Part shown: positions 46,601-55,335 of the stretch, one piece after another
Layout: every line of letters starts with the position of its first letter
Numbering within the stretch: the stretch's first letter is position 1
From: Halomonas sp. A11-A
GTDB lineage: Bacteria; Pseudomonadota; Gammaproteobacteria; Pseudomonadales; Halomonadaceae
Length of the DNA: 64,000 nucleotides
Assembly (NCBI RefSeq): GCF_003182195.1
Contig: NZ_QGTM01000003.1
Location: 62,001-126,000 of the forward strand
Direction of reading: 5' to 3'
Position numbers and translations under genes: made by a program
The notes under the pieces: generated by a model
Told to the model about the DNA's origin: nothing
The model's database searches: none
What the model saw: the letters and a program-made list of their open reading frames with translations, nothing else

Positions 46601-47824
46601 ATGGCCACACAGGACCCACGGGTAGGGTACGGCCTGCCGACGATCCTCGCGGTGGCGCTGCACGTGGTGGTGGTGCTGTTCAGCGTGATCAGCCTGCCCA
46701 GCCGCGAGCCGGAACCGACCTCATCCTCCATCGTCCAGGCGACCCTGGTCAGCACCGAGACGGTGACCGACCAGGCGCAGCGTGCCGAGGCGGCGCGCTC
46801 GCGCGCCCTGGCGCGGGAAGCGGAGGAGCAGCGTCAGGCCGAGGAGGCCGCCCGCGAGGCAGAGGAGGCGGCTGCCGCCGTCGAGGCCGCGCGTCAGGCG
46901 GAGCAGGAGGCCGAGACCCAGGCTCAGGAAGAGGCCCGTCGTGCCGCCGAGGCGGCCGAGGCCGACGCCGCCCGGCGCGCCGAAGAGGCCGAACGCCAGG
47001 CCCAGCAGCGTGAGGAGCAGCGCGTTCAGCAGGAAGAGGCCGAACGGCAGCGTCAGGCCGAGGCGGAAGCCGAGCGACAGCGTCAGGCCGAGGCGGAAGC
47101 CGAGCGACAGCGCCAGGCCGAGGCGGAAGCCGAGCGACAGCGCCAGGCCGAAGCGGAAGCCGAACGGCAGCGTCAGGCCGAGGCAGAGGCCGAGCGCCAG
47201 CGCCAGGCCGAGGCGGAAGCCGAACGCCAGCGTCAGGCCGAGGCAGAGGCCGAGCGCCAGCGCCAGGCCGAGGCGGAAGCCGAACGCCAGCGTCAGGCCG
47301 AGGCGGAAGCCGAGCGTCAGCGCCAGGCCGAAGCCGAACGCCAGCGTCAGGCCGAGGAAGAGGCCCGTCGTCAGCGCGAAGCGGAGGAGCAGCGCCGCCG
47401 GGAGCAGGAGGCCCAGCGCCAGCGCGAGGCCGAGGAAGCCGCGCGCCGCGCCGCCGAGGCGGCGAGCCAGGGGCTCGATCGCGCCATCGATGGCGAGAGC
47501 GACGCCGTCGCCAATGCGCGACAGGGCCAGGAGGCCGCCAACAGCTTCATCAACCTGGTCCGCCGCGCGGTGGAGCAGGCCTGGGTGATTCCCCCCAATG
47601 TACCGGGCGGTTCCACCGCGGAGGTCGCGGTGCGTCTCGGCCCTTCCGGCGAGCTGTTCGGCGCCTCGATCACCCGCAGCAGCGGCGACAGCGCCTTCGA
47701 TCGCTCGGCGATCCAGGCGGTCGAGGCCGCGGCACCGTTCGCCGAACTGCGACAGTTGCCAGCCAACCTGCAACGGGACTACCGTCAATTCAATCTGCGT
47801 TTCACACCGGGAGACGTGCGCTGA
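46601..47824 (+). CDS. tolA: Tol-Pal system energy transducer TolA
   Basis: Spans from the inner membrane to the outer envelope, 407 residues. A short cytoplasmic start and one transmembrane helix (about residues 11-30) precede a very long charged helical domain II (about 50-300). Its centre is nine perfect copies of [10 protein letters not shown] (148-237). The C-terminal domain III ends with [20 protein letters not shown], the TolB/TolQ-side contact fold of the TonB-like family. The TGA overlaps the tolB ATG (ATGA). The long open frame on the opposite strand is only a mirror of the repeats. Confidence 0.95.
47042..47311 (+). repeat. 30-base tandem repeat array in tolA domain II
   Basis: Nine in-frame copies encoding [10 protein letters not shown]. 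The DNA copies differ at synonymous positions (CGG/CGA/CGC/CGT for Arg, GAG/GAA for Glu) while the protein is identical. A shortened tenth unit follows. Some neighbouring 60-base pairs are nearly identical, suggesting duplication in two-unit steps. Confidence 0.9.
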
Positions 47825-53044: not shown

Positions 53045-53935
53045 ATGATCAAGAAGGCCGTGCTTCCCGTCGCCGGCTTCGGTACCCGCTGCCTGCCGGC
53101 CTCCAAGGCAATTCCCAAGGAGATGATCACCATCGTTGACCGTCCGGTGATCCAGTACGTGGTCGAGGAGGCGGTCGCCGCCGGCATCCGCGATATCGTG
53201 CTGGTGACCCATGGCAGCAAGTCGGCCATCGAGAACCACTTCGACAAGCACTTCGAGCTGGAGGCGAGCCTCGAGGCCAAGGGCAAGCACGAGCTGCTCG
53301 CCGAGCTGCGCAGCATCGTGCCGGAGGACGTCAATATCATCAGCGTGCGCCAGCCCGAGCCCCTGGGGCTCGGCCATGCCGTGCTCTGCGCCCGCCCGGT
53401 GGTGGGTGACAACGAGCCCTTCGCGGTGCTGCTCCCCGACGTGCTGGTGGATGCCGAGGGCCTCGAACGCAACGACCTGGCCTGCATGCTCGGCGCCTTC
53501 GACGCCAGCGGCCGCGCCCAGCTGATGGTGGAGGAGGTGCCCCGCGAGCTGACCTACAAGTACGGCATCGTCGATACCGGGGGCGAGACACCCGCACCCG
53601 GCGAGTCGCACCCGCTGGCCGGCGTGGTGGAGAAGCCGCCGGTGGAGGAGGCACCCTCCAACCTGGCGGTGATCGGCCGCTACGCGCTGCCCGGCAGCAT
53701 CTTCCAGCTGCTGGCCGAGACGGCCCCGGGGGCCGGGGGCGAGATCCAGCTCACCGACGCCATCGAGACCCTCCGCCAGCGCGAGGGCGTCGATGCCTTC
53801 CGCATGCGCGGCAAGACCTATGACTGCGGTCACCAGCTCGGCTACCTGGAAGCGATCCTCGCCTACGGACGCCGCCATGCCCGCTACGGCGAGGGATTCC
53901 GCGAGCTGCTCACCCGCTACGCCGACGAGGCCTGA
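53045..53935 (+). CDS. galU: UTP--glucose-1-phosphate uridylyltransferase
   Basis: Makes UDP-glucose for envelope polysaccharides and glycolipids, 296 residues. Nucleotide-binding motif VLPVAGFGTRCLPASKAIPKEM is at the N-terminus, and the uridine/sugar-site motif GLGHAVLCARPVVGDNEPFAVLLPD is in the middle. The catalytic lysine region is VVEKP. ATG 53045 is the family start. The next gene, a UDP-glucose-dehydrogenase-like protein, begins 4 bases after its stop, so the two are one operon. Confidence 0.96.
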   Translation: MIKKAVLPVAGFGTRCLPASKAIPKEMITIVDRPVIQYVVEEAVAAGIRDIVLVTHGSKSAIENHFDKHFELEASLEAKGKHELLAELRSIVPEDVNIISVRQPEPLGLGHAVLCARPVVGDNEPFAVLLPDVLVDAEGLERNDLACMLGAFDASGRAQLMVEEVPRELTYKYGIVDTGGETPAPGESHPLAGVVEKPPVEEAPSNLAVIGRYALPGSIFQLLAETAPGAGGEIQLTDAIETLRQREGVDAFRMRGKTYDCGHQLGYLEAILAYGRRHARYGEGFRELLTRYADEA

Positions 53936-53939
53936 CGCC

Positions 53940-55241
53940 ATGCGTGTGCTGATCCATGGCAGTGAACTGGCCGCGGCCACCGCCGCCGCCGCGCTCTCCT
54001 CGGTGGGCCATCGCGTCACCTGGCTTCCCCATCCCGAGACGCCCTGGGCAGAGCTCGAGCACGCCGACTGGCTGCGCCGCGAGCCCCGGCTGCTGGCCCA
54101 GCTGGAGGAGAGCCGCCAGGGCGGCAGCCTGCGGCTTGTCGAGACCCTCGAGGCGGCGCGCCCCGCCGACCAGGAGGTGCTCTGGCTGGCGGTCTCCCCC
54201 GGGCAGCGCGGCGACCTGGCCCCCCTGCTGGCCGCCCTTGCCGGCGGCGCCGCGACCCTGCTGGTGGTCAACAACTCCACCTTCCCGGTGGGCGAAACCG
54301 AGCGCCTGGAGGCCCAGCTCGAGGGCCGCGGCCGGACGGTCTCCCTGCCGGACCTGCTGGAGGAGGGGCGCGCCTGGGACACCTTCACGCGCCCCGGGCG
54401 CTGGCTGCTCGGCAGCGACGATGCCACCGCCGAGGCGCAGATGCGTGAGCTGCTGCGGGCCTTCAACCGCCGCAGCGAGGTGATCCAGCGCATGCCGCGC
54501 CGCGCCGCCGAGCTCACCAAGTTCGCCATCAACGGCATGCTGGCCACCCGCATCAGCTACATGAACGAGATGGCCGGCCTGGCCGACAGCCTGGGCGTCG
54601 ACGTCGAGTACGTGCGCCGGGGCATGGGGGCGGATTCCCGCATCGGCTACGAGTATCTCTATCCCGGCTGCGGCTTCGGCGGCCCCAACTTCTCCCGGGA
54701 CCTGATGCGCCTGGCCGACGTCCAGTCCGCCAGCGGTCGCCGCTCGGCGCTGCTCGAGCAGGTGCTCGACATCAACGAGCACAAGAAGGAGACGCTGTTC
54801 CGCAAGCTGTGGTCCCACTTCCATGGTCGCCTCGAGGGGCGCACCGTGGCCATCTGGGGTGCGGCGTTCAAGCCCGGCACGGCGCGCATCGACCATGCCC
54901 CGGTGCTGCGCCTGCTGCGGGCGCTGTGGGCGGAGGGGGTGCGGGTCCGGCTCCACGATCCCGCGGCGATTCCGGCACTGCTGGAGGAGGTGGGTGAGCA
55001 GCCGCTGTTGGAGGTGTTCGACGGCGATCCCCACGTCGCCTGCGAGGGCGCCTGCGCGCTGATGCTGGTGACCGAATGGAAGGCCTACTGGAACCCCGAC
55101 TGGGAACGGCTCGCCGGCCTGCTGGGGGAGGGCCTGCTGGGGGAGGGCCTGCTGCTGGATGGCCGCAACATCTTCGACCCGGGCTGGGTGGCCGCCCAGG
55201 GCCTGCACTATCGGGGCATCGGACGTCGCGCGGATCCCTGA
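53940..55241 (+). CDS. UDP-glucose/GDP-mannose dehydrogenase-family protein lacking the catalytic cysteine
   Basis: A 433-residue protein with the three-domain layout of UDP-glucose 6-dehydrogenase. The central domain is well kept (AAELTKFAINGMLATRISYMNE, with conserved Lys and Asn; FKPGTARIDHAP). The active-site loop, normally FGGSCFPKD, reads FGGPNFSRD, so the catalytic Cys is Asn250; another Cys (244) lies six residues earlier. The N-terminal NAD motif GxGxxG is also degraded (HGSELAAATAAAAL). It is translated right behind galU, as ugd often is. It may be a pseudo-enzyme regulating UDP-glucose use, or an enzyme with changed chemistry. Confidence 0.85.
   Translation: MRVLIHGSELAAATAAAALSSVGHRVTWLPHPETPWAELEHADWLRREPRLLAQLEESRQGGSLRLVETLEAARPADQEVLWLAVSPGQRGDLAPLLAALAGGAATLLVVNNSTFPVGETERLEAQLEGRGRTVSLPDLLEEGRAWDTFTRPGRWLLGSDDATAEAQMRELLRAFNRRSEVIQRMPRRAAELTKFAINGMLATRISYMNEMAGLADSLGVDVEYVRRGMGADSRIGYEYLYPGCGFGGPNFSRDLMRLADVQSASGRRSALLEQVLDINEHKKETLFRKLWSHFHGRLEGRTVAIWGAAFKPGTARIDHAPVLRLLRALWAEGVRVRLHDPAAIPALLEEVGEQPLLEVFDGDPHVACEGACALMLVTEWKAYWNPDWERLAGLLGEGLLGEGLLLDGRNIFDPGWVAAQGLHYRGIGRRADP
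55116..55154 (+). repeat. 15-base tandem duplication inside the UDP-glucose-dehydrogenase-like gene
   Basis: Unit GGCCTGCTGGGGGAG, 2.6 copies, giving LLGEGLLGEGLL. It is in frame and near the C-terminus. Confidence 0.85.
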
Positions 55242-55267
55242 CCGCCTCGGGCCTTCCCACCACAGCA

Positions 55268-55294
55268 AGCGGCCCCGCCAATGGCGGGGCCGCT
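55268..55294. terminator. Bidirectional terminator between the UDP-glucose-dehydrogenase-like gene and sodB
   Basis: A perfect 12-bp stem AGCGGCCCCGCC with its complement and an AAT loop. It has the same stem as the hairpin after fumA. Confidence 0.8.
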
Positions 55295-55335
55295 CGTCTC
55301 CATCGGGCGTCAGCGACGCCTGACGTGCTTGCCGA

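Follow-up and report, generated by a model that had tools for sequence, protein, structure and literature searches.

The residues of a working UDP-glucose dehydrogenase (UGD) have been described across 229 nucleotide-sugar dehydrogenases, for which the accessible part of PMC4794789 gives 18 invariant residues and their roles; in its section 4, residues of the Gly9, Tyr10, Gly12, Asp29, Thr83, and Arg327 type are linked to NAD contact and thioester hydrolysis. A UGD homologue, PA2022 of Pseudomonas aeruginosa, is counted among the UGDHs in the alignment excerpted from PMC9927302. In the capsule (K) locus of Acinetobacter baumannii, ugd is listed as a UDP-D-Glc dehydrogenase making UDP-D-GlcA in Table 3 of PMC3628348, and Table 2 of PMC9676051 names the same enzyme and product in a line that may cover ugd2-ugd5 too. 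The excerpts of PMC9676051 further state that galU, ugd, gpi, and pgm are present in all described K loci and that a second ugd homology group occurs in 2.1% of K loci, and the sugar table of that paper assigns D-GlcA to ugd2-ugd5 with the number 24, taken here as a number of K loci.

The window, a stretch of 64,000 nucleotides of Halomonas sp. A11-A, carries a UGD homologue that starts 4 nt past the galU stop codon. An earlier note, made from the letters of this DNA, had described it as intact, with the nucleophilic cysteine replaced and the NAD loop degraded, and these descriptions were borne out. The open reading frame translated without an internal stop into 433 aa. The active-site loop GFGGPNFSRD aligned with the SCFPKD segment of BceC (2y0c/2y0d/2y0e), and codon 250, AAC, encodes Asn. 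As for the GxGxxG motif, its first glycine (Gly7) was retained, the second and third are Glu9 and Ala12, and the position of the hydrolytic Tyr is occupied by Leu10. The protein matched the Pfam models of the central domain, PF00984 (93.7 bits; cut-off, 25.4), and of the UDP-binding domain, PF03720 (62.1 bits; cut-off, 30), the NAD domain PF03721 remained under its cut-off (21.6 versus 27 bits), and TIGR03026 was narrowly missed (184.8 versus 189.8). An AlphaFold2 model made with 53 family sequences (pLDDT 85.7, pTM 0.73) had BceC as its best match by Foldseek and VIA-align (2y0c_B: Z 35.6, 420 aligned residues, rmsd 4.8, 36% identity), so its fold is that of a UGD; among the matches listed, only UGD-type and 6PGDH/imine-reductase-type chains appeared. 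Residues 191 to 280, harboring the loop and part of the pocket, were the least certain region of the model (block pLDDT 53 to 76). Downstream, a hairpin lies between the gene and a convergent superoxide-dismutase-like gene and is possibly the transcription end of galU and the UGD homologue; the consensus scan listed no terminator. Elsewhere in the window, at 46601-47824, a TolA-like protein was seen by eye to contain a long run of near-identical 10-residue units.

Table 1. Features of the galU-linked UGD homologue and its surroundings, in positions of the window
Feature	Position	Strand	Basis
galU (UTP--glucose-1-phosphate uridylyltransferase, 296 aa)	53045..53935	+	TIGR01099 331.2 bits (cut-off 326.8); PF00483
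UGD homologue without Cys and NAD site, 433 aa	53940..55241	+	Translation, domain models, alignment
Residues 6-13, HGSELAAA, replacing the GxGYVG NAD loop	53955..53978	+	Alignment
Lys194 = SpUGDH Lys204, kept	54519..54521	+	173/175 Lys, 2 Arg in relatives
Arg234 = SpUGDH Arg244 (inter-subunit glucose contact), kept	54639..54641	+	175/175
Cys244, ordinary residue of this UGD subgroup	54669..54671	+	Cys in 30/35 canonical UGDs
Asn250 where SpUGDH has its nucleophilic Cys260	54687..54689	+	Codon AAC
Lys311 = SpUGDH Lys320 (UDP-glucose diphosphate), kept	54870..54872	+	175/175
Arg409 of the DGRN motif, kept	55164..55166	+	175/175
12-bp G+C-rich hairpin without a T run	55268..55294	.	RNA fold of 55242-55320, -41 kcal/mol, z -3.16

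To read the residues, SpUGDH numbers were assigned to alignment columns by motif rather than by structure alignment with SpUGDH. By this assignment, the window protein has 13 of the 18 invariant residues given in the accessible text of PMC4794789, being without Gly9, Gly12, Thr83, Glu141 (Asp instead), and Cys260; Tyr10, Asp29, and Arg327 are likewise absent in the motif alignment. After removal of E. coli-type UGDs, of eight loci in fragments (L044, L051, L058, and L087-L091), and of rows that contained X or were shorter than 400 aa, the residues were tabulated in 175 distinct full-length relatives. At the Cys position, these relatives have Asn (88), Ser (45), Gly (15), His (11), Ala (11), Thr (2), Lys (1), Tyr (1), or Gln (1); since Cys-less and canonical rows were sorted by the loop itself, the lack of Cys in all 175 is partly by construction and the count alone is circular, the tree described below being the independent test. 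Columns that had not been used for sorting gave the same picture for NAD: Gly9 was retained in 7 relatives, Gly12 in 7, and Tyr10 in none, and the residues expected at Asp29, Thr83, and Arg327 were present in 0%, 1%, and 1%. UDP-sugar contacts were largely retained, with Lys320, Arg244, and Gly257 in all 175, Lys204 in 173, and Glu145 in 157, and the DGRN Arg was found in 175/175. Less conserved were Pro140 (152), Asp264 (133), Thr118 (128), and Asn208 (109). In a comparison set of 35 distinct UGDs with the Cys nucleophile, the residues listed here were all retained. The clade also has near-fixed residues of its own, for example, Phe246 (175/175), Tyr239 (173/175), Leu10 (170/175), and Trp384 (168/175); the predominant residues at these positions of canonical UGDs are Tyr, Phe, Tyr, and Arg, respectively. 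From the residues lost, the window protein is almost certainly not a working UGD.

In 11 fast-evolving sequences of family f36, the Cys position holds Thr (9) or Ser (2); Lys204 is replaced by Arg in 10 of the 11, and 9 have lost the DGRN Arg. The very fast-evolving Cys-less members at L246-L255 (genera g80 and g117), some of which carry an N-terminal extension, have Arg for Lys204 in most cases and mostly Gln for the DGRN Arg, and their neighbors are pgi-like and pgm-like or galE-like genes.

The earlier note had also considered Cys244 as the alternative nucleophile and a sequencing error at 54687-54689, and neither held. Cys244 has a counterpart in 30 of the 35 ordinary UGDs too, whereas 10 of the 11 fast f36 members have Trp there and 23 of 27 members of the Acinetobacter genus have Ala or Val; because loci L150-L229 were fetched with patterns that included Y[PA]GCGFGG, Cys244 is overcounted among them. 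A sequencing error is ruled out because the same or another Cys-less loop recurs in 175 distinct relatives.

The independent test was provided by phylogeny. A tree of 73 rows grouped 59 Cys-less rows behind a single branch (SH-aLRT 100, length 0.95) that excluded the canonical rows. A tree without the NAD domain, the loop, and the Arg327 segment (232 columns) again gave the Cys-less clade with SH-aLRT 100, so the clade is not produced by the lost residues, and a tree including A. baumannii gave a clade of 67 rows, also with SH-aLRT 100. The trees came from a quick search without bootstrap; L051 and L059 had been removed beforehand, as had close relatives sharing more than 72% identity among Cys-less rows or more than 66% among canonical rows. 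Altogether, 61 rows lacked the Cys loop, and the two outside the clade, L232 (Phe) and L243 (Arg), stood among canonical rows and were set apart by name before the group tables were made. These two UGD homologues without Cys (L232:1459-2832 in G608 and L243:1417-2835 in G377) are possibly separate losses or decay. Motiliproteus rows formed the first branch of the Cys-less clade and retain Gly9, which fits the expectation for an early stage. The simplest reading is that the clade had a single ancient origin.

Alignment of the active-site loops of galU-adjacent homologues, as proposed in the earlier note, showed that the Cys-less state belongs to this whole clade, beyond one genome. Matches at E 1e-20 or better, canonical UGDs included, occurred in 273 of 275 genomes of the window's family; from the E-values, we infer that 269 of the 275 probably have the Cys-less gene, the loop itself having been read in the fetched loci. 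The exceptions would be G005, G108, G116, G117, G264, and G274, and the gene is in pieces in G081, G266, G222, and G110. Loci identical over 4.3 kb place Halomonas alimentaria and H. halodenitrificans in the genus group of the window. Outside the family, proteins of this kind were detected in a wider search with a profile built from 19 members. In a scan of named genomes, at least 508 of 591 candidate stretches were confirmed as relatives, and the best 80 loci, which were taken further, included Alcanivorax, Alloalcanivorax, Halopseudomonas, Marinospirillum, Motiliproteus, Balneatrix, Amphritea, Alkanindiges, Salinicola, Modicisalibacter, Billgrantia, and others.

The clade extends to the K locus of Acinetobacter. 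In the family holding G521, matches at E 1e-15, canonical UGDs included, were found in 105 of 119 genomes, and from its genus g133 the gene was fetched from 26/26 genomes with a Cys-less loop in all. This genus is Acinetobacter, since A. baumannii records are 95% identical to the member protein of G702. Twenty-five g133 genomes and three A. baumannii records gave 27 distinct sequences, with Asn at the Cys position in 27/27 and Lys204, Arg244, Gly257, Lys320, and the DGRN Arg likewise in 27/27. The gene order was an initiating-transferase-like gene, galU, the Cys-less gene, pgi, and an epimerase gene. Beyond these lay a pgm-like gene and, at the far end, an lldP-like gene in L292 and L294; a search identified galU and pgi, and the other genes were named by eye. 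The three A. baumannii genes (L294:7001-8260, L295:3001-4260, and L296:3001-4260) occupy the constant ugd position of the K locus and lack both the Cys and the GxGxxG motif. If this constant ugd is dead, the assignment of D-GlcA to ugd2-ugd5 makes sense. The records NZ_CP064203.1, NZ_CP077849.1, and NZ_CP104448.1, A. baumannii sequences of 3.7 to 4.1 Mb with capsule genes, are filed as plasmids and look like chromosomes.

Our best reading, to which we give a probability of roughly 55%, is that the window protein is a conserved pseudo-dehydrogenase which binds UDP-hexose without NAD and regulates the supply of UDP-glucose by GalU and Pgi. The ancestor would have been a UGD of the ordinary long type (BceC-like) that probably sat in a cluster for UDP-glucose supply, together with galU, pgi, and others. 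The nucleophilic cysteine, the thioester-hydrolyzing tyrosine, and the NAD contacts have been lost, and the fold and the central domain are retained, as are the UDP-hexose pocket residues. UDP-glucose (or UDP-GlcA) would then bind between subunits and not be oxidized, and the liganded form would modulate GalU and/or Pgi, so that carbon flow into UDP-glucose is matched to demand. The sequence work shows the gene, its clade, the residues lost and retained, the selection, the neighborhood, and the persistence of the gene beside a broken true ugd; ligand binding, dimerization, and action on GalU or Pgi are what we infer. The loss of NAD contacts together with the retention of sugar contacts, including an arginine of the other subunit, suggests that UDP-hexose is bound as a signal, and from these residues binding of a UDP-sugar is probable; regulation of GalU or Pgi is a more tentative proposal. 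The earlier suggestion of a UDP-glucose sensor or GalU partner fits the retained sugar contacts, the lost NAD contacts, and the galU/pgi neighborhood.

GalU and Pgi are the likeliest partners because the gene stays beside them. Among 205 distinct Cys-less loci, 158 have galU at most 450 nt upstream and 83 have pgi next to the gene; at 201 loci, one or both of them lie on the same strand within that distance. The count leaves out matches no longer than 900 nt, those with HMM scores below 150 bits, and loci repeating the same middle 600 nt, and a missing neighbor is uncertain at the many loci whose flank is only about 1.5 kb. Outside the Halomonas group, with pgi named by eye and the Cys-less gene as X, the orders galU-pgi-X, galU-X-pgi, and pgi-X-galU were found, and pgm-like or galE-like genes, also named by eye, lie near X at some non-Halomonas loci. 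Neither galU nor pgi lies beside the gene at L075, L111, L116, and L211, which weakens an obligate partnership with GalU. At three of these, the Vreelandella-like loci L111, L116, and L211, the gene stays in a ubiG/tamA-like neighborhood with no galU beside it. The adjacency to galU and pgi could also be a relic of the ancestral operon of the true ugd rather than a sign of present function.

The same neighborhood, with galU and/or pgi at 201/205 loci, would suit a structural partner, i.e., a scaffold or stabilizer of GalU and/or Pgi without ligand sensing, as would the strong conservation of the central domain and the loss of the DGRN Arg in 9/11 fast f36 members. However, Lys320 and Arg244, which contact the ligand, are present in 175/175, beyond the need of a pure scaffold, and neither neighbor is present at 4 loci, so that we regard this explanation as unlikely.

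Conservation was quantified in 297 pairs from 97 distinct loci, all at least 55% identical to the window gene, the pairs not being independent. The median dN/dS was 0.203 for the whole gene, 0.332 for the NAD-domain remnant (N part), 0.044 for the central domain, and 0.139 for the C-terminal domain, compared to 0.147 for galU; the central domain was below galU in 294 of the 297 pairs. The central domain is thus under very strong purifying selection, and the gene is under selection and not decaying, as the earlier note had held. That the central domain is the most constrained part could also be expected of an enzyme performing other chemistry on a UDP-sugar without NAD or cysteine, such as an epimerase, lyase, or hydrolase acting via Lys194/Asp254; in addition, Lys204 (173/175) and Asp264 (133/175) are kept, as are the glycines that precede the loop. 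Nevertheless, some members of the clade have Asn, Thr, Tyr, Ser, or His for Asp264 and the 11 fast f36 members have Glu, Asn208 is replaced by Thr, Ile, Ser, or Met in others, and the Cys position mixes nine residues. With these positions variable, no fixed new catalytic set is seen, and other chemistry appears improbable.

The protein could instead be a catalytically dead subunit that joins a canonical UGD in a mixed oligomer and tunes that enzyme, a role that depends on which other UGD genes are present. Of the 275 genomes of the family, 274 contain PF00984, mostly with more than one copy. Genomes with the Cys-less gene as the sole one are thus few, and with another PF00984 gene in most genomes, a role tied to an active dehydrogenase is possible there. 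Furthermore, at six Alcanivoracaceae loci (L150, L151, L152, L162, L172, and L175), a canonical Cys-containing ugd lies upstream of the same galU, and both kinds of protein therefore coexist. Against this, three genomes of 95 to 99% completeness (G137, G141, and G156) have a single PF00984 member, and the gene fetched from them is Cys-less; G101 was not counted, as it has one PF00984 match versus three protein matches. The second, Cys-containing ugd that the earlier note wanted sought was not found intact in the window's draft genome (G000; 99.72% complete, 63 contigs), in which the window gene alone was above the PF00984 cut-off. The only other UGD-like DNA found in it was a broken E. coli-type ugd on contig 40 (L002:961-1999, minus strand), adjoining what by eye is a reverse transcriptase of group II intron type. 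Its reading frame changes near residue 39, and sequence is missing at a second disruption before SCLPKD. As the genome is a draft of 63 contigs, an assembly fault behind these breaks is possible. If the draft is right, the genome has lost its true UGD yet keeps the Cys-less gene intact, and an active UGD partner is unnecessary; we hold the mixed oligomer to be very unlikely. The excerpted text of PMC13296553 reports that engineered Halomonas bluephagenesis TD01 made hyaluronan from "intrinsic" GlcA synthesis, with the dehydrogenase given in a legend as hyaC, and the accessible part of PMC13297420 has a similar legend. The TD01 result shows that some Halomonas make UDP-GlcA and is neutral with respect to a dead enzyme.

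A slow or one-step dehydrogenase binding NAD in a noncanonical manner would be in line with the kept fold and with Pro140, Thr118, and Asp264 in 152, 128, and 133 of 175 relatives, but Gly9, Tyr10, Gly12, Asp29, Thr83, and Arg327 are gone in nearly all of them and PF03721 is below its cut-off, making this a highly improbable explanation. Finally, a decaying ugd pseudogene or a sequencing error, for which nothing speaks except the residue losses themselves, is dismissed, the pseudogene being refuted by a dN/dS far below 1 and by intact genes in many genera, next to clade-specific near-fixed residues such as Phe246 (175/175) and Tyr239 (173/175).

Overall, a gene near-universal in the Halomonas family and a constant gene of the A. 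baumannii K locus bear a UDP-glucose dehydrogenase label that their sequence contradicts. Even without the regulatory part, such genes should not count toward UDP-glucuronate predictions unless assayed, which affects predictions of capsule structure, pathway models, and hyaluronan engineering in Halomonas. A broader and still tentative proposal is that, order-wide, NAD-free Cys-less UGD pseudoenzymes may sense UDP-hexose and control GalU/Pgi, the Acinetobacter "ugd" included, which would then make no UDP-glucuronate. If the regulatory reading is true, a UDP-glucose-sensing pseudoenzyme would stand where envelope sugars branch off from central carbon metabolism, the UDP-glucose supply for envelope glycans would be set by a pseudoenzyme family, and the assignment of glucuronate-containing capsules to additional ugd2-ugd5 genes would be explained.

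Among the literature matches listed, mostly non-subscription and represented by partial texts, on topics including UGD pseudoenzymes and UDP-glucose sensing, no description of a Cys-less, NAD-less UGD clade was found, and we rate the galU/pgi-linked Cys-less UGD as a pseudoenzyme clade within a known superfamily. Compared to BceC, the UGD of Burkholderia cepacia, the window protein shares the full-length fold and the UDP-sugar contact residues; however, BceC has the Cys in SCFPKD, and canonical BceC relatives have the GxGYVG loop and the NAD Arg, all of which the window protein is missing. The A. baumannii K-locus "ugd" (galU-ugd-gpi), whose loop reads GFGGENFSHD in three records, belongs to the same clade and has the same neighborhood, although it sits in a capsule locus, unlike the window gene. 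PA2022 adjoins galU in P. aeruginosa and is, like the window gene, a galU-linked UGD homologue. GalF, a GalU paralogue that tunes UDP-glucose supply and gives TIGR01105 its model name, "GalU regulator GalF," shares with our proposal the idea of a paralogue acting on that supply, whereas the fold and the parent enzyme differ. Regulation by OpgH of E. coli depends on UDP-glucose. OpgH is, in the accessible text of PMC3723540, a sugar-metabolism protein doubling as a nutrient-dependent regulator, but it is an unrelated glucosyltransferase that controls cell size, unlike the window protein.
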